Source: a virus. From it: 35,602 nt of DNA. The DNA lies in the IMG/VR virus record IMGVR_UViG_3300046007_004688, positions 1-35,602 of that record. The stretch is one strand, 5' to 3'. The notes under the pieces are model-generated. The model worked only from the letters and a program-made list of their open reading frames with translations. It searched no databases and was not told where the DNA came from. Both the position numbers and the translations under genes were made by a program. This document shows positions 5,006-20,800 of this stretch, piece by piece (position 1 is the stretch's first letter; every line of letters begins with the position of its first letter).

Positions 5006-5242
5006 ATGGCTAGGGGTGCATTTGTTGGTTTGCCCGTAGCTACCCTAACGAGTCTCCGCACAAAGTATCTTGAGTGCTTGGAAGCGATTGCGGTAGCGGG
5101 GGCATCGTATTCCATCGCTGGAAGATCGTTTAGCCGCGCCAATTTGGGCGAGGTTCGGGACACGATTGAAGAATTGACTTACGCCCTCAAGCTGGCAGAT
5201 GGTTCTAGGGTGCTTACCACCTACGCCAAGTTCGGCCCGTGA
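5006..5242 (+). CDS. gpW-like head-tail joining protein
   Basis: A 78-residue protein between large terminase and portal, exactly where lambda W lies. The pattern matches gpW: an N-terminal helical segment with TLTSLRTKYLECLEAI, a beta hairpin at SYSIAGRSFSRANL, and a C-terminal helix (EVRDTIEELTYAL). gpW seals the portal after packaging and builds the connector to the tail. Its stop overlaps the GTG start of the portal gene (GTGA at 5239-5242), so the two are probably translationally coupled. Confidence 0.7.
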   Translation: MARGAFVGLPVATLTSLRTKYLECLEAIAVAGASYSIAGRSFSRANLGEVRDTIEELTYALKLADGSRVLTTYAKFGP

Positions 5243-8200
5243 AGAAAGCCAAGCTAAATCTAATTGATAAGGCCATCGCCTTTATCAATCCAAAGGGCGC
5301 GGTGGATCGGTTGGTAGCCCGCCAAAAGCTGACCAAGTTCGAGTATGATGCGGTCAAATACACAAGGGAACGCAAGGGGCCGAGCGCACTATCCGGGGCG
5401 GAAGATTATCGCTCTAATTATGACCGGGTAGAGCTAATGAAAAGGGCGCGGGACTTGGCCGAGAATGTTGGCCTAGTTCGCTCACTCCTTCTCAAGTTTG
5501 CGGGTCATGTCGCCGGATCAATCAGCTATCAAGCCCGAACCCAGAATCCCCAGATCAATACCGATGTCGAGGCGTATTGGGCTGAATGGTGGGACAAGTG
5601 CGACATTTCCACAAGGCACACAGGCTCAACGCTTATGCAAGTGGCAGTTATGTCCATGTTGCGTGACGGCGATTTTCTTTTCGTCCTAGTTCGAGATGGC
5701 GATGGCAACCTAAAGATTCAAGGCATCGAGGCCGACAGACTAGGCGATCCTTTTAAAGTCTATACCAGCCTAGAGCTAATCGGCGGAATCCATATTGACC
5801 GCACAACTGGCGCACCCACGGCTTACGATATTTACAATCGGAGCATCGGGGATTTTTATACCTACCAACTAACCATTCCCTCAAGCCAAGCCTTCCATCT
5901 TTTTGACCCGCTTCGGATTGACCAGTATCGCGGAGTTTCCGCTTTCCATACAGCCATTAATGACGCAACCGACATTTACGATATTATCAATTACGAAAAG
6001 ATGGCGGCGAAGGTTGCAAGTTCGCAATCTGGAATCGTTAAGCGGAATAACAACAACGCCGCCGACCTTTCTACTCTTTCAAATGATGATGACTTAAGCG
6101 GGAACACAATCAAACTAGAGACAATCGAATCGGGCAAGATTTCCTATTTGGAGCCGGGAGAGGACATTATTTTCCCCAACGGCCCAAGCCGACCCAGCGG
6201 AGCCTTTGCAGAGTTCCATAAGATTCTGCTTCGTAATATCTGCCTTGGTTTAAACATTCCATATTCTTTTGCCGTTGACCCTTCCGCGATGTCCGGCCCA
6301 ACTGCCCGTCTTGAGATGCAACAGGCAGGGCGCACCTTCCGCCGCTACCAGAATCTTTTGAATGATAAGGTGCTTCGGCCTATTAAGAACATCGTCCTAG
6401 CCGATGCGGTTGCTCGTGGGCTTATCAGCGGAACCGAAGGAACCAAGACGACCAAGGGCATCTTTAATTTCGGGGCTAATGTCTCGATTGATTTAGGGCG
6501 GGAATCTGCCTCCGCAATCTCCGAATTTAAGACTGGCTTGCGAACCGCCGCCGACATCTACGCCGAGCGTGGGCAAGACTTTGAGAGTGCTATGAGGCAA
6601 AGGGCAATCGAGGCCAAACTGATTAAGGACTTGGCCGAGCAATACCAGATTGACCCCCAGACGATTTCCGATGTGGTTCCTCCCGCAAAACCAGAACCGC
6701 AGATGCCCAAGGCTCCCGCGCCCCAACCGCCAGTTTCCCAAGAACCCCCACAGGATGACGAAGGCGAGGACGAGGGCGGCGAAGAACCCGAACCCGATGA
6801 GCCTATTGATGGAGGAGATGAGGAGCTAGAATTTGACTGCGGAACTGGTGCTGGCGGATTCAAAGAGGGGAATACTTGCGCTGGCGGAGGAAATGGCGGC
6901 GGGCAAGAGGAAAGATATAGGGACAGAATAGAGGGAACAGACGAAGAGGATAGGAACGAAAAAAGAAAAATCCAAAGGAAAATCAGAAACTTAAACAAAA
7001 AAATTGAGGGCTATAAAAAAACCGAAGCTGAAATTCAAAATAAAATAAGCGACTTAAATAATAAAATAGCCTCACGCACACCCGAATATAATAGCAAATT
7101 AGATATAATTAACAAAGAGTCGGAAAGGATAAAACAAGAGGGCGTTGCGGCAAGGGCGAAAATTCAAGAAAAACTAGATAGGGACTTGGCGAAGATTGAC
7201 GAAAAATTTAAGAAGCGCAGGGAAAAAAGAGCCAGCACATTAAAAGACAGATATGCCAAGCAAGGAAGGGAAGTTCCAGAGGCCATTCAAAAACTTTACC
7301 CAGAATACAAGTTCGAAGAAAAAGAGGATGCGGATAGCGAGGAAACGCCAGAAACAAAAGAAATTGAAGACGCAATCTCTAGGCTTGACGATTTGGCGAA
7401 ACAGCTTGAGGGCATTTTGGCACAAACAGAGAGTCCCGCAAAAGAAGACTTAGAGGGTAAAAAAAAAGTTCTTGAGGCGTTAAGCAAAAAAGATTGGCAA
7501 ATGCTCATCGCGGGGATGATGGGCGGAATTGAGTTGGGCAAATACGATGGGATTGATTTCACTCCCCCAGAAGGAGCAAGAGAGTCCGCAAAGAGGGCTT
7601 TGGATGTAAGGGAGAAAAAACCCGCAAGCCAAAAAGGAATGACCCCGGTGGGCATCGCAAGGGCTAGGGATTTGATGAATGGCGTGAAATTGTCCCCCGA
7701 TACCGTCCGCAGAATGAAAGCCTTCTTTGATCGCCATGAAGTCGATAAGAAAGGAAGCACTTGGGACGAGCAAGGGAAGGGCTGGCAAGCGTGGAATGGA
7801 TGGGGTGGAGATGCTGGTTATGCTTGGGCAAGGAAGGTCGTTAGACAGATGGAGAGCAGAGAAAGGGAGCTTTCGCAGTTCGCTCGCCCCGGCCCCAAGT
7901 CAGCGGCACAAACCCCAGCACCGCCCAAGGAAAGAATCAAAGGCTCCAAGGAGAACCCCGAAGGCACGGCGGCCACTAGGTCAAAGGCTGGGGATATTGA
8001 GATTTCAGAAGCCAACGAACAAGCCCTAAAAGACAAGATTGCCGAGTTCAAAAAGGATCATCCACAAAAGAACGCCCCTAGCCTTGGGACGCTCAAAAAG
8101 GTATTCCGCAGAGGCGCAGGGGCTTTCTCAACCAGCTTTAGGCCAACCATTACAGGCGGAAAACCTAACAGCCGAAACGCTTGGGCGATGGCGAGGGTGA

Positions 8201-8274
8201 ACAAGTTTCTAAAAATGGCTGGCGGTGGAGAGGTCAAAGAATCCTACCGCAAGGCAGATGGCGACCTTCTTTGA
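5239..8274 (+). CDS. Portal protein (lambda gpB-like) with long C-terminal extension
   Basis: Residues 1-475 are a lambda-family portal: a basic N-terminus, SGAEDYRSNYDRVELMKRAR, YWAEWWDKCD, and a QGIEADRLGDP segment. The portal forms the dodecameric ring through which DNA enters. At 1011 residues it is about twice lambda gpB. The extra part holds a Pro/acidic linker (480-530), a CGTGAGGF...NTCAGGG motif at 534-550, a highly charged coiled coil (about 557-745), a module at 801-875 (GIARARDLMNG, MKAFFDRHEVD, WGGDAGYAWARK) and a final module from about 946 (GAGAFSTSFRP, NAWAMARVNKFL). The last two modules recur in phage head proteins. GTG start overlapping the gpW-like stop. Confidence 0.88.
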   Translation: MKKAKLNLIDKAIAFINPKGAVDRLVARQKLTKFEYDAVKYTRERKGPSALSGAEDYRSNYDRVELMKRARDLAENVGLVRSLLLKFAGHVAGSISYQARTQNPQINTDVEAYWAEWWDKCDISTRHTGSTLMQVAVMSMLRDGDFLFVLVRDGDGNLKIQGIEADRLGDPFKVYTSLELIGGIHIDRTTGAPTAYDIYNRSIGDFYTYQLTIPSSQAFHLFDPLRIDQYRGVSAFHTAINDATDIYDIINYEKMAAKVASSQSGIVKRNNNNAADLSTLSNDDDLSGNTIKLETIESGKISYLEPGEDIIFPNGPSRPSGAFAEFHKILLRNICLGLNIPYSFAVDPSAMSGPTARLEMQQAGRTFRRYQNLLNDKVLRPIKNIVLADAVARGLISGTEGTKTTKGIFNFGANVSIDLGRESASAISEFKTGLRTAADIYAERGQDFESAMRQRAIEAKLIKDLAEQYQIDPQTISDVVPPAKPEPQMPKAPAPQPPVSQEPPQDDEGEDEGGEEPEPDEPIDGGDEELEFDCGTGAGGFKEGNTCAGGGNGGGQEERYRDRIEGTDEEDRNEKRKIQRKIRNLNKKIEGYKKTEAEIQNKISDLNNKIASRTPEYNSKLDIINKESERIKQEGVAARAKIQEKLDRDLAKIDEKFKKRREKRASTLKDRYAKQGREVPEAIQKLYPEYKFEEKEDADSEETPETKEIEDAISRLDDLAKQLEGILAQTESPAKEDLEGKKKVLEALSKKDWQMLIAGMMGGIELGKYDGIDFTPPEGARESAKRALDVREKKPASQKGMTPVGIARARDLMNGVKLSPDTVRRMKAFFDRHEVDKKGSTWDEQGKGWQAWNGWGGDAGYAWARKVVRQMESRERELSQFARPGPKSAAQTPAPPKERIKGSKENPEGTAATRSKAGDIEISEANEQALKDKIAEFKKDHPQKNAPSLGTLKKVFRRGAGAFSTSFRPTITGGKPNSRNAWAMARVNKFLKMAGGGEVKESYRKADGDLL

Positions 8275-9910: not shown

Positions 9911-10876
9911 ATGAGTTATATTGCTGGCGGATCGACAATTCGGGCGGACATCAACCAAGCGTTGATCGAAGGCCCGGCGGCTGATGTGGGGCTGATCGGG
10001 GCGACCCTCCTCCCCCTCCAGAATGTGCAAGCCAAGAGCGGAACCTACCTCAAGGTTGAGCTGGCTGGCGGCGAGCTTCTTTCCAACAATGCGGCCTCCC
10101 GTTCGGCGGGTAGCGGCTATCAGAGGAGCATCCGTTCCTTCACGAGCGCGAACTACGCCACCGAGGAGTTCGGCTTGGAGGAGCTTCTGGACGATTCCAA
10201 TGTGCAGGATTTGAACAGGTTTTTTTCGTACGAAAGCGAAACTGCCCGTTTCCTTCTGCGCCAACTGAAGCTATCCCATGAGAAGCGGGTTTCCGACCTT
10301 CTCTGGGCCAACACCACCCCCTTCACCACGAGCGATCAGTCCCGCGCCGTTGCCTATACGCAAGGCAATGTCACTACGATTGATGTCGCCCGTGATGTGG
10401 CCGCCGCCAAACTCGCTCTCGCCAAGTTGGGCTACGAAGCCAACTGCGTTGCGATGTCGGCCAATGTGTTTGAGTTGATCCGCCGTAGCACCCTCCTCCA
10501 GAATCAGTTCTTCGGAGTTATCTCCGACACTGGTGCGCGGTTGCTGACGGAAGCCGAGATTGCGGCGGCTCTGGGTGTCCAGACTCTCGCCGTGGGTCGT
10601 GCGGCCATCAACTCCGCCAACAAGGGCAAGGCTTACTCCGGCGGATTCGTTGTGCCGGACACCAAGATCATCGTGGGTCAGATCGCTGGCGGTGAGTTCA
10701 CCGCTGGTGGTATCGGCCGCACCTTGGTTTGGGCGGCTGATGCGGCAGGGTTTGTCTCCGAGAGCTATCGTGATGAAGCTCGCCGCTCCAATGTTCTGCG
10801 GGTTCGCATGAACACGGACGAGGTTGTGATCGACCCCAATGCGGCGGTTCGTATCACCACCGACTTCTCTGCCTAA
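9911..10876 (+). CDS. Major capsid protein
   Basis: A 321-residue protein located after protease/scaffold and decoration genes. It has a lysate-abundant-protein look (GC-rich, even codon use) and capsid-like segments: an N-terminal arm followed by GATLLPLQNVQAKSGTYLKV, a FTSANYATEEFGLEELLDD stretch, SHEKRVSDLLW, a middle domain with NCVAMSANVFELIRRS, and a C-terminal VIDPNAAVRITTDF. This is the layout of phage coat proteins that bind to scaffold and later to the decoration protein. AAAGGATAAAATAAA before the ATG gives a good ribosome site. A strong terminator follows at 10899. Confidence 0.85.
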   Translation: MSYIAGGSTIRADINQALIEGPAADVGLIGATLLPLQNVQAKSGTYLKVELAGGELLSNNAASRSAGSGYQRSIRSFTSANYATEEFGLEELLDDSNVQDLNRFFSYESETARFLLRQLKLSHEKRVSDLLWANTTPFTTSDQSRAVAYTQGNVTTIDVARDVAAAKLALAKLGYEANCVAMSANVFELIRRSTLLQNQFFGVISDTGARLLTEAEIAAALGVQTLAVGRAAINSANKGKAYSGGFVVPDTKIIVGQIAGGEFTAGGIGRTLVWAADAAGFVSESYRDEARRSNVLRVRMNTDEVVIDPNAAVRITTDFSA

Positions 10877-10898: not shown

Positions 10899-10942
10899 AA
10901 AGGGGGAGTTAGGATGAAAGTCCTAGCTCCCCTTTTCCTTTT
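10899..10942 (+). terminator. Stem-loop terminator after the capsid gene, covering the next gene's start
   Basis: Bases 10899-10914 pair with 10921-10936 in a 16-base-pair stem (14 Watson-Crick pairs and 2 G-T pairs) closing a six-base loop TGAAAG. The descending arm ends in TTTT, then CC and TTTT (10939-10942), as in a Rho-independent terminator. The stem also contains the GGGGGAG ribosome site and the A of the ATG of the lipoprotein gene starting at 10914. It can therefore limit read-through from the capsid gene and restrict lipoprotein translation. Confidence 0.75.
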
Positions 10943-11051
10943 GGCAGTTCTTTCTAGTTGCCAAAAGCCAATCAAATATGAGGAGTTACCAGAAACCAAG
11001 TATCCAGAAACCCCCACGATGGGGGCTTGGGAGCATTGGGAAAAGAATTGA
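10914..11051 (+). CDS. Small lipoprotein (45 aa)
   Basis: A type II signal peptide is visible: Met-Lys, hydrophobic LAPLFLLAVL, then lipobox L-S-S-C with the acylated Cys at residue 16. The 30-residue mature part is polar and Glu/Pro-rich (YEELPETKYPETPT) with no known fold. A capsid-adjacent lipoprotein might act in superinfection exclusion or lysis; this is a guess from location. The start at 10914 is chosen over an in-frame ATG at 10839 because the longer form reads through the capsid gene end and hides the signal peptide. Its start codon lies in the stem-loop described at 10899. Confidence 0.65.
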   Translation: MKVLAPLFLLAVLSSCQKPIKYEELPETKYPETPTMGAWEHWEKN

Positions 11052-11088: not shown

Positions 11089-12744
11089 ATGAAACACAAG
11101 GTTTCTGTTTATCTGATTGCCGGAAATGAAGAGGCATATATTGAAAGATGTATTCGTTCCTTTGCCCCACTTGCCGCTGAAACAGTTGTATGTATCGCAA
11201 GGGGAAATAAAGAACCAGACAAGACCGAGGAGATTGCCAAAAGCCTTGGGGCCAAAGTCATTCATTATCAGAATCAAAAAACTGATTGGCCTCATATAGA
11301 TGATTTTGCCAGCGCAAGGAATACGGCCCTAGATGCCTGTTCTTGTGATTGGTCTTTCTGGGTGGATGCCGATGACGAGATGGCGAAGGATGCCCCGAAG
11401 ATTGTAGATGACGCGATTGAGCAAGCCAACAAACAGGGTGCTGATTTAATTGCATTTAGATATTGGGTTGAAAACGCCCAGCTTAATCCCCTTCGAGAGA
11501 TGGCCTTAAGAAAAGGCAGGGGGAGGTGGAAAAACAGAGTCCATGAAATGCTCTGCGCCCACGACCAGACAAAACTTATTGGCGTTGATAAAATTGTAAG
11601 GATTCACAAGCCCCACGGATACAAGCAAACATCAGCCGAAAGAAACTTTAGAATTTTAGAGGATGTGATAGAGCCAGCCCCCAATGCCCTTTATTACAAG
11701 GCCCAAGAACAATTTCTATCCGGCAAATATTCAGAATGTTATGAGACAAGCAAAAAGGCTCTTATGTTTGAGGGCTTGGATGAAACTCTTCGATATGATG
11801 TGCTGACCAACTTGGGTAGGATTTCTCCAGAAAAGGAAAGGCTAAAGTGGCTTGGCGAAGCCATAACCTTGTCCCCGGATCGAAGGGAAGCCTATTTTTT
11901 GGCTGGTCAAGAATATGCAAGCAAAGGCAAATGGCTAAAATGCTATGGGGTGATGAGGTCTTGCATGACCCTCCCAAGGCCGAAGGTTCATTATTGGAAT
12001 CTCAACGAGGCAATTTATCAATGGCAGTCTATGGATTTGTATGAAACCGCCGCTGTTTCTGCAGGGGAAATGGGCGAGGTTGAAAAAATGAAAAAAGCTA
12101 GGCCAACCCCTAAAATATCAATTATTCACGCAACAAGGGGAAGGCCACAAATTGCGTGGCAAAGACGCTGGCAGTGGCTTTGTTTGGCCCAAAAGCCCCT
12201 AGAGGTTGAATGGATTTTTGTTGTCGATCACGATGACACTCAAGACTACACCCCGCACCAAGCCATCCGATGCAACCCCGGAGGTATTATTAACGCTTGG
12301 AATTATGGGGCAAAGCAAGCAAGAGGAGGAATCATCATTCAGATGAGCGATGATTGGAGTCCGGCAAGACATTGGGATGCCCTAATTTCAAACGCTATTG
12401 GGCCTACAAATGAGCCTAAAGTCTTGGCAATAGCTGATGGCCTAAGAACCGATAAACTCCTCTGTATGGCGATTTTAACGCAAAAGAGGCTTGAGCAACA
12501 GGGGGGATTCATGTTTCACCCCGACTACCAAGAAAGTGACGGCATCTATTCCGATAATGAATTTACCGAAAGAGCTTATAATGAGGGGGTTGTGATTGAA
12601 GCTAGACATATTCAATTCAAGCACGAAAACCCTTTATTTACGGGCGGCAAGCCAGATGATCTAATTAGGCATCACAATAAGCCAGAGTTTTATGAAAGGG
12701 GGAAGGCAATCTATGAGAAGCGAAAAGCCTCAAATTGGAATTAG
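11089..12744 (+). CDS. Bifunctional glycosyltransferase with two GT-A domains
   Basis: A 551-residue protein with two GT2-like domains. The first (1-180) starts with VSVYLIAGNEEAYIERCIRS, has a FASARNTAL segment and the metal motif DADDE at 93-97, then WKNRVHE, a layout common in SPBc2-type/TPR-linked transferases. A helical TPR-like middle (about 190-330) has repeats such as ALYYKAQEQFLSGKYSECY. The second domain (about 340-545) begins KISIIHATRGRP, has VDHDD at 379-383 and QMSDDWSP. Both domains keep acidic metal motifs, so both may be active, possibly adding successive sugars. It heads a six-gene cassette between capsid and head-completion genes. Acceptor unknown: virion protein, DNA base or host glycan. 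Confidence 0.85.
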   Translation: MKHKVSVYLIAGNEEAYIERCIRSFAPLAAETVVCIARGNKEPDKTEEIAKSLGAKVIHYQNQKTDWPHIDDFASARNTALDACSCDWSFWVDADDEMAKDAPKIVDDAIEQANKQGADLIAFRYWVENAQLNPLREMALRKGRGRWKNRVHEMLCAHDQTKLIGVDKIVRIHKPHGYKQTSAERNFRILEDVIEPAPNALYYKAQEQFLSGKYSECYETSKKALMFEGLDETLRYDVLTNLGRISPEKERLKWLGEAITLSPDRREAYFLAGQEYASKGKWLKCYGVMRSCMTLPRPKVHYWNLNEAIYQWQSMDLYETAAVSAGEMGEVEKMKKARPTPKISIIHATRGRPQIAWQRRWQWLCLAQKPLEVEWIFVVDHDDTQDYTPHQAIRCNPGGIINAWNYGAKQARGGIIIQMSDDWSPARHWDALISNAIGPTNEPKVLAIADGLRTDKLLCMAILTQKRLEQQGGFMFHPDYQESDGIYSDNEFTERAYNEGVVIEARHIQFKHENPLFTGGKPDDLIRHHNKPEFYERGKAIYEKRKASNWN

Positions 12745-12970
12745 AAAAGCCAAGCCAAGTGACCCAAAAAATTTGGGTGTAATTAAATTTGGCAAGTCCC
12801 GCCCAGACAAAACTAAGTATGTGATTGTTGATTTTGAATATGATGAAAGGGCTGGGAATAGCTTATACAAAATCGGCATGAAACTACTTGCCAAAGACAA
12901 GGAAGCCGTCATCAATTATTTGATCGTTCAAGCCATAAAAAACACAGCCAAATTAAAATGCGAGAAATAA
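12713..12970 (+). CDS. Small hypothetical protein in the glycosyltransferase cassette (85 aa)
   Basis: Unrecognised. The product is basic at its N-terminus and has a beta-rich core (YVIVDFEYDERAGNSLYKIGMKLLAKD). The start at 12713 lies inside the end of the preceding transferase gene, with GGGGAAGG upstream. The in-frame ATG at 12692 is less likely because that ATG is further from a ribosome site. The end overlaps the FkbM-like gene by 13 bases, so it belongs to the same transcript. Confidence 0.55.
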   Translation: MRSEKPQIGIRKAKPSDPKNLGVIKFGKSRPDKTKYVIVDFEYDERAGNSLYKIGMKLLAKDKEAVINYLIVQAIKNTAKLKCEK

Positions 12971-13464
12971 CAAGCGAAAGGCCATTAGAGCATTGGTGGA
13001 TGGTGAATTGCATGGGCAAATCCATCCTCGATCTGGGCTGTGCTTATAATGATGTGGATGAAGAAAGGACTAGGGAAAACAAACTAGGAACCCCACATTA
13101 TTTTATTTCTCAAGAGCCATTGGCATATTTGGGGGTAGATTCATTTTGCCAAGACATTCAACAATTAAGGGCTGAATTTCCCAAGGCCAGATTCCTTTGC
13201 GAGTCAATAGATTCACCAGAAAAAATCCGTGGCTATATCATAGATGCAAAGCCTCAAATCATTAAATGTGATATTGAGGGGGCGGAAATATTTTTCCTTG
13301 GGCTTCCCAAGCTGTCTTTTGTTGAGGAGCTTTGTATTGAGCTTCATGGCCCACACATCGAAAAGCCTTTTTTGGAATGGGCAAATGGGCTTGGATTTTT
13401 CTTGAAAGAAAGGGCAATTCTTGCCAAGCATAGGCATATTTCGGTTGTTCATTTATGCAAATAA
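12958..13464 (+). CDS. FkbM-like SAM-dependent methyltransferase
   Basis: A 168-residue class I methyltransferase fold. Motif I is SILDLGCAYND at about 22-32 (SAM-binding glycine loop), and the FkbM hallmark IKCDIEGAE is near residues 100-108, followed by a CIELHGPH strand. FkbM-family enzymes usually methylate sugar hydroxyls or related small groups, which fits a cassette of glycosyltransferases: it may cap the transferred glycan. It is short for the family (commonly 200 or more residues). It overlaps the next gene by 10 bases. Confidence 0.75.
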   Translation: MREITSERPLEHWWMVNCMGKSILDLGCAYNDVDEERTRENKLGTPHYFISQEPLAYLGVDSFCQDIQQLRAEFPKARFLCESIDSPEKIRGYIIDAKPQIIKCDIEGAEIFFLGLPKLSFVEELCIELHGPHIEKPFLEWANGLGFFLKERAILAKHRHISVVHLCK

Positions 13465-14024
13465 ACATTATTACAGCCTTTTTAAATGCCGGAGATGTAA
13501 GGGTTAATTTTGCCCAAAGCCTTTTCCTTTCTTCAATTTCAAGGTTTCCAGAGATTAGGCCGATCATTATTCCCGGCCATCCACGCCCAAGATTCAATGA
13601 AATGCTTGCCACCGCTAGGCTTGGCGGGGTGGGGGATTATTTTGGATGGATCAACTCTGATTGCCAACTACTCCTTTCCCCAAGGGTCATCATATTTGAA
13701 AATCAAGAGCTTGATGTTATTGGGCTAAGGAGAATTGAAATTGCCACGGGGGAGAAATGCGGCGGTGTTGATGGCTATTTGGTAAAGAAAGATTTCTACG
13801 ACAAGCATCTTGCCAATGGGCCAAGCCTTTGGGTTGGGGCTACTCATATAGATTGGTGGGTGACTAGGGCGGCACAAAAGGCCGGGAAATACGGAGAAGG
13901 ATTTTTCCTTGCCCATATTCCACACGAAAAAACAAATGCTAGCGCGGGAATTGATGAGATTGGGCAAGAAAATATTAGAGCCTACAATGATTGGGCCGAT
14001 AAAAACGGAATTTCAAAATGCTGA
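13455..14024 (+). CDS. GT-A-like glycosyltransferase (189 aa)
   Basis: A compact Rossmann-like protein. The opening INIITAFLNAGD resembles a GT2 start; FGWINSDCQLL has the position of a DxD metal motif but reads NSDC, and GVDGYLVKKDFY resembles the acceptor-side loop of phage GT-A proteins. A WVGATHIDWW segment and a late histidine (AHIPHE) are further family-like features. I infer a transferase, perhaps with altered metal use. The start overlaps the upstream gene by 10 bases; the stop overlaps the next start by 7. Confidence 0.6.
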   Translation: MQINIITAFLNAGDVRVNFAQSLFLSSISRFPEIRPIIIPGHPRPRFNEMLATARLGGVGDYFGWINSDCQLLLSPRVIIFENQELDVIGLRRIEIATGEKCGGVDGYLVKKDFYDKHLANGPSLWVGATHIDWWVTRAAQKAGKYGEGFFLAHIPHEKTNASAGIDEIGQENIRAYNDWADKNGISKC

Positions 14025-14785
14025 CCATTTTCACGATTGTATTAAATGGCGAGCCTTATATTTCAAAAAAGCTAGAGGCATACCAAAAATTGCAAATCCC
14101 TTGGCAGTGGAGGATTGTTGAGGGTGTTTCAAGCCCAAGAAATTGTACAAGATGGTGCAAGGAAGTTCCCTCCAAATGGCATAGGGAATATGTTTCAATA
14201 GACGGAACACATGAATATCTAAAGAACCTAAACCATAAGAATGTCTCTGTTTATTTTCAAAACAAGCCCTTTGATGGAAAGATTGAAATGGTGAACAAGG
14301 CTTTAGAGGGTGTGGATTGTGGAGTAGTAATGGAACAAGATGCCGATGAGTTTTGGACTCCCGAACAAATGACCCGCCTTTATGAATTGATGAAAGATAA
14401 GCTGGTCGGAACAGTTGCCCAATTTCATTGTAATTACCATATTGGGAAAAAGATTGTGGTAAGCCGAAGCGGTCTTGGCTCCTATCCCTATGAATGGTAT
14501 AGGGCTTGGAAATGGGGCGAGGGAATCCATTTTATCAGCCATGAGCCTCCGCAATTAAATCATCAAACCAGCAGAATCCCCCGTGGAATCACCGAGGAAT
14601 TTGGCCTTGTGTTTGAACACTTCGCGTACTGTACGGCTCAAAATGTGGCCTTTAAAGAGGACTTCTATGGCTACGCTGGCCTTCTAAAATCTTGGGAGGA
14701 ATTACAAAAGACACATGGCCCGGTTCGACTAAATAGATTCTTCAACCATATTCAAGACCGAAGCGTGGTAGATGATGCAACCTAA
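14018..14785 (+). CDS. GT2-like glycosyltransferase (255 aa)
   Basis: The N-terminus LTIFTIVLNGEPYISKKLEAY is a typical GT2 nucleotide-binding beta-alpha unit. VVMEQDADEFW (near residues 105-115) carries the DxD motif, and the protein ends in a region with several His and aromatic residues (HFISHEPPQLNHQ). Length 255 fits a single GT-A domain. It overlaps the genes on both sides, so it is co-translated with the cassette. The sugar and acceptor cannot be read from the sequence. Confidence 0.75.
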   Translation: MLTIFTIVLNGEPYISKKLEAYQKLQIPWQWRIVEGVSSPRNCTRWCKEVPSKWHREYVSIDGTHEYLKNLNHKNVSVYFQNKPFDGKIEMVNKALEGVDCGVVMEQDADEFWTPEQMTRLYELMKDKLVGTVAQFHCNYHIGKKIVVSRSGLGSYPYEWYRAWKWGEGIHFISHEPPQLNHQTSRIPRGITEEFGLVFEHFAYCTAQNVAFKEDFYGYAGLLKSWEELQKTHGPVRLNRFFNHIQDRSVVDDAT

Positions 14786-15458
14786 AATCATTAAGTACCA
14801 AGAAAGGCTGGGCGATGTGCTTCGTTGCCTTCCGGCTTGCAAGTATTTGGCCGATCAAGGGCATGAGGTTCTTTTTGATTGTTTTCAACAATATCACGGC
14901 GTTTTTGATGTTGTATCATACGCAAGTCCGATGGGGGCGATTCCTTGGAATGGTGAAATTATTGATCTTCAAATATGGCCCGCAAGATATGGCGAGTTTC
15001 TAAAATCAAAAAAGGCATGGCATGATTTTGTTTATAGCCATCCAGCAATCGCGGGGGCCGATAAAACAAATATTGTCCTAGATAGGCTTGGGGCAGAAAA
15101 AGCAGTTGGACTACCAGAAAAATACAACCTAGTTGCCCCATTTGGAATATCCCAAAGCTATAAAAGAAACCCAATCCAACTTATGCAATTAGCCATTAAA
15201 GAGCTTGGAAAAGATGACACATTTATTTTATGCCCCCCAGAGTTTCAGATTCAAGGGCTTAATACCTATACCGCCCCAAGCATAGAACAGATGATTAAGG
15301 CCATAAGGGATGCTGACCAGTTTTGGGCCATCAACTCATCCCCAATTATCATTGCCTCTGCGGTAAGAAGAGAAAAAGAAAGCAGATTTTGGGGGGAGAA
15401 AAATGGCTCTGAAAATCAGAATGTTTTTGATTTTGAAGGGCTAGTAAAGATGGATTGA
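14772..15458 (+). CDS. GT9/heptosyltransferase-like protein
   Basis: A 228-residue GT-B-like protein. KIIKYQERLGDVLRCLPACKYLADQGHEVLF is the N-terminal pattern of GT9 (heptosyltransferase-like) enzymes: a strand, a GD helix start, and a second strand. Later, YNLVAPFGIS and FWAINSSPIIIASA correspond to the nucleotide-sugar-binding half. It is shorter than true GT9 enzymes (about 320 residues), so the N-terminal domain is trimmed or degenerate. GT9 enzymes act on lipopolysaccharide core in host bacteria; here the target is open. Start ATGATG; 14775 is an alternative. The stop is embedded in the TTGACATA signal of the next gene. Confidence 0.65.
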   Translation: MMQPKIIKYQERLGDVLRCLPACKYLADQGHEVLFDCFQQYHGVFDVVSYASPMGAIPWNGEIIDLQIWPARYGEFLKSKKAWHDFVYSHPAIAGADKTNIVLDRLGAEKAVGLPEKYNLVAPFGISQSYKRNPIQLMQLAIKELGKDDTFILCPPEFQIQGLNTYTAPSIEQMIKAIRDADQFWAINSSPIIIASAVRREKESRFWGEKNGSENQNVFDFEGLVKMD

Positions 15459-15474: not shown

Positions 15475-15792
15475 GTGGGCGGGGCTATTTCCACCTCTTA
15501 TTTCGGCACTGACTTGTCCTATGTAATCAACGACCTATGGACAAGCGTAACTGGCCTTGCAAGCAACCCAGTTTCCGCATCGGTGACTGACCTTGGGACG
15601 GCCTCTGAGCTTGATGTCGGGGGAGAAATTTTTAGGATCACGCAAAGTTTGGTGGTTTGTGCCGGGGTTATTTCTGCCCCAGCCATCGGCAATCTTGTCA
15701 CCCTTAACGGCAACGAAAGAATGATCGCAGGGTTTAGCCTATCCACGGATGGCATTTCCTACACAATAGAGCTTGCCGAAATCACAACCTAG
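15475..15792 (+). CDS. Head-tail connector-like protein (105 aa)
   Basis: A small Ser/Thr/Gly-rich beta protein beginning at GTG (MGGAISTSYFGTDL). It comes after the glycosyltransferase cassette and before two paralogous completion proteins, the position of lambda FII-type connector genes. A VNDLW-like helix followed by repeated beta strands (SELDVGGEIFRITQSLVV, VTLNGNERMIAGF) fits such a fold. No specific family signature is recognised, so the assignment rests mostly on order and size. Confidence 0.5.
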   Translation: MGGAISTSYFGTDLSYVINDLWTSVTGLASNPVSASVTDLGTASELDVGGEIFRITQSLVVCAGVISAPAIGNLVTLNGNERMIAGFSLSTDGISYTIELAEITT

Positions 15793-15795
15793 TTT

Positions 15796-16212
15796 ATGGC
15801 CTCGATTGAAAGGGAGGTTGAGAAGGGGCTTCTCAATGCTGTCTCCGGCGTTACAGGGGTAAATCCATATACAAGCGAAAGAAGTTCCCCAAGGCTCCTC
15901 CCAAGCCTAGTGGCCCAAGCCCAAATAGGGGGTGAGCTTTTGGGAAGGTTCACTGGCATCTTTAGCGTTCCGGCCACACTGACCTACACTGCAAGAGCCG
16001 ATGGGAACACTAGGGCGGCCTTTGATTCAAAGTTTCAAAGCATTATGACAGAGCTTTATAGAGAACCAGACTTGGCCTCTTACATGACTAACGCTACAAG
16101 TTTATCTGTTTTTGTGGCGAGAGTTGCAAACGATAATCCTCAAATTATTTCAAGAAATAGAACTTGGGCCAAAACAATAACCCTAGACATAAACGCAACC
16201 GCAAAAAAATGA
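15796..16212 (+). CDS. Head-tail/tail completion protein, paralogue A (138 aa)
   Basis: An alpha/beta protein with core GLLNAVSGVTGVNPYTSERSS near residues 11-31, then LLGRFTGIFSVPATLTYTARAD. It aligns by eye with the next gene along its whole length, so the two are tandem paralogues. They occupy the Z/U-type position in the lambda order, suggesting tail-completion or terminator roles. The stop overlaps the next ATG. Confidence 0.55.
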   Translation: MASIEREVEKGLLNAVSGVTGVNPYTSERSSPRLLPSLVAQAQIGGELLGRFTGIFSVPATLTYTARADGNTRAAFDSKFQSIMTELYREPDLASYMTNATSLSVFVARVANDNPQIISRNRTWAKTITLDINATAKK

Positions 16213-16718: not shown

Positions 16719-18782
16719 ATGGCACTTCCAGTTTTAGACGGGAACCAGACAGCAACCACGCTCTCCTCGGTAGTCACGGGCGGGGAACATATTGTAGCCC
16801 ATAGCGTTGTAAGCCTTGGGGCAAATGCCATCGCTAATATTACATCAGCAGTCAGCGGAAGCGTTGTCTCCATCTCAAACTTCCCCCCCACCCAGACGAT
16901 TGCGGGCACGGTGACGGCGAATGCTGGTGGTGATTTCGCCAATTCAATAGAAAGTGTTTTTGATGTTGGTAATGTAAGCAAAAAAATTGCCGTACAACTT
17001 TATGATGATAATGGAGGTGCGGTTGGGGTTCCAAATAATCCTTTGCCCATCTCCGGGACGGTGACGGTTGGGGGATTTTCCAGCGTTAGTGTTGGAAGTG
17101 GGGCTATTTTAATTGCGGGGGATCGCGGTGGTACAATTACTCCAATTCCAATCGATTCTGGGTCTGGTCAAGTTGGTGTTCAGCTTAAACAAAGCTCTGG
17201 CCCGTCTATTGATCCAATTTCACAAACCAACGGTCTTTGGGTAAGACAAGCTAACGGCTCATCTATCACCGTAGGCAACTCCGTCACCATCGGCTATCTT
17301 CCAAATTCGCTTTCCATAGTAAATAGTTCGTCAGTTACAAAAGCCAATGTTCAATATACTGCGATTGCTGGCTCAGTAAATGCATCTGATGGTGCGCCGA
17401 CATATACGATGCGACCTATTGGAGTAAATTCATCTGGTCAAATTTACATTGACGCTAATCCTGCCGGGCAAAGCGTTTTTTCAAATGACGGAACTTCACA
17501 TATATTTGTAAAACCAACGCCCAACACATCCGTCACCATCGGCTCGCTTCCCGCCATAAGCGGCACGGTGACGGCGAATCTTTTTGGAGAAGCAGTTGGG
17601 GGCGGGCCAAATGAGCCAACGAAACTTCAATGTGATTCCAACGGCTTTCTAATTACCAGCCTGTATAGAAGCGGGTCTGACGCAGTAAATTACGACCCTG
17701 TTGCTGGCAATGTTTCGGTTAATGTTAAAAATGTATCCTCTGTCACCATCAGCTCTCTCCCGGCCATCAGCGGCACGGTGACGGCGAATTTGCTCGCCCA
17801 AAAACAAATAGCAACAGCCGCTCCGACATCAGCAGTTTTAGCTGGAATAAAATTTGATGATGATGGGACAATTCAACCAATTTCTTCGGCCTATCCAGTT
17901 CCAGCATATTTGCCATTAGAATCAAGCGGCATAGGTGCATCTCAACCCAATAACGCAATTCAAGTTGGCTTTGAAACGGGAGGAAATTATGTAGCGGCGG
18001 GTTCGTCATTTCCATTCCCTGTAACTGGAACTGTCACCATCGGCTCGCTTCCCGCGATCAGCGGGACGGTGACGGTTGGAAATAACAATTTTAATATTAA
18101 AACAGTTATTGCACAAGATGGCTCGGCAAACTTTACGGTATTTAACGGAACTCAATTTAGGCTATATACGCCAACAGGGGCATCTAAAACTCTTAATAAT
18201 ATTTTTGGGGCAACGCCCTCTTGGGTAGTTGCATTTTCAGATTCGGTTACATGGTTTTCTGACTCTGGAACACAAGTGGCATATTTTCACGATGGAACCC
18301 AATGGACTTTGGATGATTTTACAACCCCAGCCGGAACGCTTGCGCTTGATGGGTCTGTTTTCGTAACAAATCTTTCGTACGAATCGAACATAAATATTCT
18401 TAATGGATTTACTGCGGCACAGTTGGGGACGGCCTATATAAATGGCTCTGGTGCTTTGCGAGTTAGTGTTTACTCTGGCACAGTCACAGCGGCCGCTCCC
18501 AACGGCTCGCTAACCACCCGCTTTGGAACGCCCACCACGGCCAACACCGCCTTTGCCACCAGCGCAGTCACCAATGCGAACCGCAAATATCTTTTAATTC
18601 AGAATGTGACCACGGGATCGAATGTGATTACCGTGGGGATCGGTTTTACGCCTACCACCACCCAAGGTATCCAGCTAACAGCTGGGGCGGGGATCACCTT
18701 TGAATCGTCTTATATACCTACGGGAGCCGTGCAGATTTTATCCAGCGTGACGGCCTCCAACTTCACCATCTTGGAGGCGTAA
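16719..18782 (+). CDS. Repeat-containing fibre/adhesin-like structural protein (687 aa)
   Basis: A Ser/Thr/Gly/Val-rich beta protein built on copies of VTIGSLPAISGTVTA (three full copies near residues 273, 343 and 440, plus partial copies near 63, 110 and 190). This repeat occurs in phage head-fibre or tail-fibre-like proteins. The C-terminal 100 residues form a separate domain (RKYLLIQNVTTGSNVITVGIGF, then GAVQILSSVTASNFTILEA) common at the ends of phage surface proteins. The location is unusual, between head-tail joining genes and the tail tube. AAGAAAGG supports the ATG. A receptor-binding or decoration role is inferred. Confidence 0.65.
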   Translation: MALPVLDGNQTATTLSSVVTGGEHIVAHSVVSLGANAIANITSAVSGSVVSISNFPPTQTIAGTVTANAGGDFANSIESVFDVGNVSKKIAVQLYDDNGGAVGVPNNPLPISGTVTVGGFSSVSVGSGAILIAGDRGGTITPIPIDSGSGQVGVQLKQSSGPSIDPISQTNGLWVRQANGSSITVGNSVTIGYLPNSLSIVNSSSVTKANVQYTAIAGSVNASDGAPTYTMRPIGVNSSGQIYIDANPAGQSVFSNDGTSHIFVKPTPNTSVTIGSLPAISGTVTANLFGEAVGGGPNEPTKLQCDSNGFLITSLYRSGSDAVNYDPVAGNVSVNVKNVSSVTISSLPAISGTVTANLLAQKQIATAAPTSAVLAGIKFDDDGTIQPISSAYPVPAYLPLESSGIGASQPNNAIQVGFETGGNYVAAGSSFPFPVTGTVTIGSLPAISGTVTVGNNNFNIKTVIAQDGSANFTVFNGTQFRLYTPTGASKTLNNIFGATPSWVVAFSDSVTWFSDSGTQVAYFHDGTQWTLDDFTTPAGTLALDGSVFVTNLSYESNINILNGFTAAQLGTAYINGSGALRVSVYSGTVTAAAPNGSLTTRFGTPTTANTAFATSAVTNANRKYLLIQNVTTGSNVITVGIGFTPTTTQGIQLTAGAGITFESSYIPTGAVQILSSVTASNFTILEA
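17532..18077 (+). repeat. GC-rich direct repeats within the fibre-like gene
   Basis: A segment of about 47 bases that begins GTCACCATCGGCTCGCTTC and ends CGGCACGGTGACGGCGAA recurs at 17532-17579, 17742-17789 and 18033-18077. Partial copies appear at about 16901-16922, 17052-17070 and 17283-17300. The units are almost the same at the DNA level although the intervening sequence is AT-rich and differs, so they are probable recombination points for swapping modules. Confidence 0.75.
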
Positions 18783-20446: not shown

Positions 20447-20800
20447 ATGGCCGCAACAACTATTGGAACTACCGGGCTTGCTTTTGGACTTACCACGGAA
20501 ACCGTTGGGCTTGTTCAGAGCTTTAGCGAAACCAGAAATATTGAGAAATCGGAAATTAGAAACAATGTTGGTGAAATCGTTGGAATTTCCTACTTTAACC
20601 CAACCACCGCCTATTCGCTTTCTTTTGCCGCAGTAACTAATGGTAGCTATCTTGTTCAAGCTGGCTCCGCGATTGCGGCTCTTGCCAATGCGGCCACCCT
20701 CGGAACAACCCGAATTGACTCCATCACGGTCAATAAATCAAACGATGCCTTTGTGACCGTGGACATCGCGGCCACTGGCTATCCGAATGTAACAACATAA
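20447..20800 (+). CDS. Major tail tube-like protein (117 aa)
   Basis: A small beta-rich protein with a TGLAFGLTTETVGLVQSF start, an RNNVGEIVGISYFNPTTAYSLSF core resembling tail tube proteins (a GxVVGxSxYN-type strand), and an NKSNDAFVTVDIAA end. It is placed ahead of the frameshifted tail chaperone pair and the tape measure gene, the usual position of the major tail protein, which forms the tail tube in stacked hexamers. The assignment rests on pattern and order. Confidence 0.55.
   Translation: MAATTIGTTGLAFGLTTETVGLVQSFSETRNIEKSEIRNNVGEIVGISYFNPTTAYSLSFAAVTNGSYLVQAGSAIAALANAATLGTTRIDSITVNKSNDAFVTVDIAATGYPNVTT

Follow-up and report, generated by a model that had tools for sequence, protein, structure and literature searches.

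In the phage represented by IMG/VR virus record IMGVR_UViG_3300046007_004688 (positions 1-35,602), the major capsid gene is separated from the head-tail genes by six overlapping genes, referred to together as the island; this whole stretch of 35,602 nucleotides is called the window here. The genes to the left are those for terminase, portal, a protease/scaffold-like protein, a decoration-like protein and the major capsid protein. To the right there are three small genes of conserved position, which are assumed to be head-tail genes, and a gene for a 687-aa Ser/Thr-rich protein. All six island genes were found where the preliminary description had placed them, on the + strand and tightly packed, with successive overlaps of 7-53 nt. 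Their position and overlapping frames tie the island to the head genes. The features are as follows.

9911 to 10876, + strand: major capsid protein, 321 aa, flanking the island on its left (PHROG 1005 major head protein, 2.7e-25)
10911 to 11051, + strand: lipoprotein-like ORF, 46 aa, with an LSSC lipobox seen in its sequence, in slot A, a variable gap that separates the capsid gene from GT1
11089 to 12744, + strand: GT1, 551 aa (PF00535, 1.2e-14)
12713 to 12970, + strand: c1, a small conserved protein, 92 aa when read from 12692 and about 85 aa if the likelier start is used
12958 to 13464, + strand: FkbM-like SAM methyltransferase, 168 aa, in the exchangeable middle (PF05050 at E 0.055, below cut-off)
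13455 to 14024, + strand: putative GT-A-like protein, 189 aa, paired with the FkbM-like gene (invariant FGWINSDC and HIDWW motifs)
14018 to 14785, + strand: GT2, 255 aa, GT-A glycosyltransferase (PF00535, 8.9e-7)
14772 to 15458, + strand: compact GT-B protein, GT9/heptosyltransferase-like, 228 aa (model pTM 0.85)
15475 to 15792, + strand: small protein of the head-tail region, right neighbour of the island, its position conserved in relatives

Relatives were retrieved with two queries, the capsid protein and GT1, and the best 80 loci per query were compared; they are cited by locus number (L) and position. The capsid protein has 234 relatives in IMG/VR, and no relative of it was found among GenBank phages or GTDB genomes. 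The search with GT1 led to two genome contigs, of which L210 clearly comes from a sister-clade phage and L211 is a short contig. The phage group is large, widespread and uncultured, and it appears to be lytic. A scan of promoters and terminators gave counts near those of shuffles. It was also observed that the portal gene of the window (5239-8274) is joined to a long C-terminal extension that includes a PHROG 2859-like part, giving 1,011 aa in total.

GT1 consists of an N-terminal GT-A domain, a TPR-like middle at about residues 198-320 and a second GT-A domain at about 341-545, with invariant catalytic-type motifs in both GT-A domains (DxDD in the first, SDDW in the second). The two GT-A domains noted in the preliminary description are borne out by the Pfam match of the first, a weak PF00535 match of the second in most of 23 related records, and fold matches over nearly the full length to two-domain polymerases, heparosan synthase 2 among them. 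The best profile matches were to the glycosyltransferase domain of GmaR (3.7e-11) and to SunS (8.1e-9), along with TPR proteins, and in the fold search SunS and ThuS were at the top (about 1e-15), the best of the other glycosyltransferases reaching about 1e-8. The AlphaFold model behind the fold search is of moderate quality (mean pLDDT 71, pTM 0.45, the C-terminal 70 residues poor). Like GmaR, SunS and ThuS, GT1 has a GT2-type GT-A domain with DxD followed by TPR-like helices; it differs from them in its second GT-A domain and in its place in a phage late gene block. SunS acts on a peptide cysteine. The substrate of GmaR is flagellin, and the TPR part of this enzyme has been proposed to recognise the protein acceptor (PMC9638930).

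At the other end of the island, GT2 is recognised as a glycosyltransferase from its Pfam match, as had been suggested, and the 14772 protein has a GT-B fold of the GT9 type. The family of the latter gave no Pfam GT9 match in 12 members and no profile match in PDB, yet the confident model matches TibC first (9.8e-7) and then WaaC, WaaF and a GT9 protein (all four at E 1e-6 to 3e-4), and GT9-like RLGD and NSxP motifs are present. Unlike the enzymes it resembles, it lacks a sequence-profile match and has only 228 aa, compared with 320-390 in TibC-type and GT9 enzymes. TibC is a dodecameric glycosyltransferase that acts on an autotransporter adhesin. Since GT1 resembles GmaR and SunS and the 14772 protein resembles TibC, both ends of the island resemble protein-modifying enzymes.

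The start of c1 is more likely to be 12713 than 12692, because Met8 does not vary and the alignment of many relatives begins only at residues 4-8. The FkbM-like assignment made in the preliminary description is weak for the window gene taken singly (14 bits against a PF05050 cut-off of 22.7), but the family is kept across relatives, where conserved homologues form a common mid-island family; another middle gene of relatives, c5, passed PF05050 at 3e-10. For the 13455 protein, which had been called glycosyltransferase-like, the motifs stand as the basis of the assignment, while Pfam, PDB and profile comparison gave no support for a GT-A nature. Of 87 unique loci, 29 have a homologue of the FkbM-like gene and a single locus has the 13455 gene; the pair was found in the same place in five other records (L224-L228).

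Across relatives the middle of the island spans 0.6-3.6 kb and is swapped between lineages. Its methyltransferases belong to the Methyltransf_24, FkbM and Methyltransf_23 families. It may also hold enzymes that resemble galactosyltransferases, exostosins or GT2, as well as an NAD epimerase, radical-SAM enzymes of two kinds and transketolase/E1-like halves; in the sister clade an HAD phosphatase adjoins a sugar nucleotidyltransferase. Nearly all of the recognisable genes suit sugar transfer or modification. In one locus (L078:2821-5865) the middle is replaced by a radical-SAM enzyme and two transketolase/E1-like halves, which suggests unusual sugar or acyl chemistry, and in two others (L014:4778-7592 and L006:12372-15186) it contains a B12-binding radical-SAM enzyme, a DUF7796-like gene and an NAD epimerase.

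In spite of this variation the frame of the island is fixed. GT1 lies directly 3' of the capsid gene in all 74 unique loci that were retrieved with the capsid protein and extend at least 4.5 kb downstream, and in a wider set with at least 2.6 kb downstream it is present in 125 of 125, the gap before it being longer in two. The left edge is formed by GT1 and c1 and the right edge usually by GT2 and the GT9-like enzyme, with c1 present in 79 of the 87 unique loci and the two right-edge genes in 77 each; between GT1 and the 15475 homologue there are 0.7 to 5.1 kb. The ends of the island are thus conserved, their genes being universal or nearly so, and only its middle differs across loci. In the sister clade, with a capsid identity of 47-50%, the order is again capsid gene, slot A, GT1, variable genes, usually a GT9-like gene, and the 15475 homologue. 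Purifying selection on the three core glycosyltransferase genes is strong, with a median dN/dS of 0.08 for GT1, 0.07 for GT2 and 0.12 for the GT9-like gene (0.14 for the capsid gene).

It had been proposed that the genes form a cassette embedded in the virion genes, AT-richer than the capsid gene and with insertion edges that could be found in related phages lacking it. The difference in composition from the capsid gene is real, as GC is 38-45% in the island genes compared with 59%. However, neighbouring structural genes are equally low (41% in the gene at 16164) and the low-GC pattern recurs in relatives, so that AT-richness is no mark of recent gain and was rejected as a pointer to foreign origin. 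No relative without the island was found among the best 80 loci per query, although deeper relatives may differ. Since every informative relative has it, the island is not an insertion, and with no cassette-free phage to compare there are no insertion edges to seek; a recent insertion was therefore discarded as an explanation. The island is a fixed, modular locus of the whole phage group, so that the finding reaches further than the preliminary description.

Slot A differs in content between relatives. Tiny lipobox ORFs directly after the capsid gene (10911-11051 in the window; L012:8096-8281) are kept in several of them, and these lipoprotein-like ORFs could be exclusion lipoproteins. Elsewhere slot A holds other small lipoproteins or, in many relatives, proteins that begin with a short tag of either of two kinds, MARYGYGMSVSGSRT or M.IKGGIRIGGL (for example L102:1651-2878, L094:1791-2853, L109:2155-2928, L029:1363-2082 and L216:9338-10099). 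Behind these N-terminal tags come C-terminal domains that are exchangeable (LamG, Gly-rich and others), the same domain being found behind both, and the tags were seen at slot A only; the window is without tagged proteins. It is possible that the tags are particle-docking peptides. The tagged proteins are candidates for the particle surface, and possibly for the acceptor, in those relatives that have them. The Ser/Thr-rich 687-aa protein (16719-18782), which has repeated SGTVT-type motifs and, in relatives, conserved ends and a variable middle, is another candidate acceptor.

Identity matrices were also compared between genes. GT1 correlates poorly with the capsid protein (r 0.33), in contrast to the downstream head-tail and tail genes (r 0.62-0.87; 0.85 for the gene at 15475, 0.87 at 15796 and 0.84 at 20447), and the island edge genes correlate mutually (r 0.67-0.83). 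This shows that recombination has separated the capsid gene from GT1, with slot A at the break, and the correlation of GT1 with the genes downstream is mostly linkage, giving no extra support for the capsid protein as acceptor. The matrices name no acceptor, because they show only the break and the linkage of the downstream block, and this route to the acceptor was abandoned.

Taken together, these observations suggest that the island is probably a locus for the glycosylation of virion protein, with a glycan that varies. In the scheme that we infer, from late co-transcription and enzyme activity to acceptor, step order and biological role, the island would be transcribed together with the late structural genes, the TPR middle of GT1 would dock a structural protein and its N-terminal GT-A domain would attach the first sugar. 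The next sugar may come from the second GT-A domain, and GT2 and the GT9-like enzyme would lengthen the chain. The middle genes, here the FkbM-like methyltransferase and the 13455 gene and in relatives the other enzymes listed above, would alter or cap the glycan, and we therefore propose that lineages could exchange surface glycans by recombination, the role being to mask or change the particle surface. The idea in the preliminary description of a virion-protein acceptor, with a possibly methylated glycan, is thus favoured by the resemblance to protein glycosyltransferases, by the lack of DNA-modifying or lysogenic partners in the records searched and by a like layout in an unrelated phage, but the capsid protein in particular gains nothing from linkage.

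Glycosyltransferases of isolated freshwater phages have been explained by DNA protection or cell-wall change (PMC10202952). The enzymes of the island might alter a host surface protein or glycan, such as flagellin, pilus or LPS, late in infection, against superinfection or the sticking of progeny to debris. By analogy host surface proteins, for example flagellin or pilin, would suit a GmaR- or TibC-like enzyme as well, as GmaR targets flagellin and TibC is an adhesin glycosyltransferase, and the lipoprotein ORF in slot A of the window, with lipoprotein-like ORFs in some relatives, would also fit. Serotype-converting gtr clusters are a known case of phage-borne glycosyltransferases. Unlike these, however, the island has no membrane flippase or membrane glycosyltransferase, its core proteins are without a clear transmembrane segment or partner, and a search for tyrosine integrases found none in 23 related records. 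The place of the genes inside the late structural block, which is fixed in both clades and recurs in an unrelated phage, also speaks against action on the host surface, and we consider it unlikely.

Glycosylation of phage DNA at hypermodified hydroxymethyl-pyrimidines is less probable still. Phage glycosyltransferase sets that place varied glycans on DNA are described by Pyle et al. 2024, as cited in PMC12619734, and the window does contain, outside the island, a TET-associated glycosyltransferase gene (1388-2242; PF20691, 1.7e-45), which is a sign of DNA modification; it adjoins a ParB-like gene (763-1410). However, this gene is present in only 3 of 23 records compared with 23 of 23 for GT1, and the nearest relatives of GT1 are protein glycosyltransferases, which argues against a DNA acceptor. 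Among the 23 long related records, some of which may be incomplete, there was no member of the thymidylate-synthase/dCMP-hydroxymethylase family (PF00303) although controls were detected, and none of TET/JBP (PF12851), a weak result because its control was silent. Both DNA glycosylation and serotype or lysogenic conversion are weakened by the failure to find a gene for hydroxymethylpyrimidine synthesis, a tyrosine integrase or a membrane partner. That the block consists of passenger accessory genes at a tolerant site with no joint pathway, as the wide differences between middle genes might suggest, is about as improbable as DNA glycosylation, given edge genes that are universal or nearly so, strongly selected and mutually correlated, and middle genes that nearly all fit sugar transfer or modification where recognisable.

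If virion-protein glycosylation is indeed the function of the island, then virion glycosylation with a modular glycan would be a core and universally kept trait of a widespread uncultured group; to our knowledge, it has been shown for very few phages. A more tentative extension is that the group varies its particle surface by swapping glycan modules between fixed protein-glycosyltransferase ends. The island would then be a phage surface-variation locus comparable to bacterial O-antigen or flagellin-glycan loci, with unusual sugar chemistry in some members (those with radical-SAM, transketolase-like and nucleotidyltransferase genes). This would make it testable why phages should have to vary their sugar coat, whether for capsid-sensing defence, adsorption, grazing or masking, and the island would be a source of compact protein glycosyltransferases and of enzymes that modify sugars.

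We found no description of this arrangement in the open-access literature, and the closest systems differ from it in several respects. According to the account of Freeman et al. 2023 in PMC12363180, three mycobacteriophages (Che8, Corndog and Myrna) reportedly use glycosyltransferases of their own to modify capsid and tail or tail-tube proteins. The Che8 cluster contains a GT2-Methyltransf_24/TylF fusion (gp108), a GT2 and a GT25. As in the island, glycosyltransferases are clustered there with a sugar-type O-methyltransferase, the counterpart here being the FkbM-like gene and, in the middle of relatives, Methyltransf_24. However, profiles of GT1, GT2, and the 14772 and 13455 proteins had no detectable homology to Che8 gp108-110 (best 2.4 bits), and the Che8 cluster is near the right genome end, whereas the island is beside the capsid gene, universal in its clade and exchangeable in its middle. 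Podovirus ctKR88 (MW202524) has a GT2-TPR protein and more glycosyltransferases and methyltransferases directly after its capsid gene, although its GT1-like domain is fused to a GT-B domain. In ctKR88 a nicotinate-phosphoribosyltransferase-like gene also lies beside a PRPP-synthetase gene (L222:31626-33805), an adjacency seen in phage NAD-rebuilding pathways. The capsid, portal and terminase of ctKR88 have no similarity to those of the phage studied here, and it is an independent case of the same layout.
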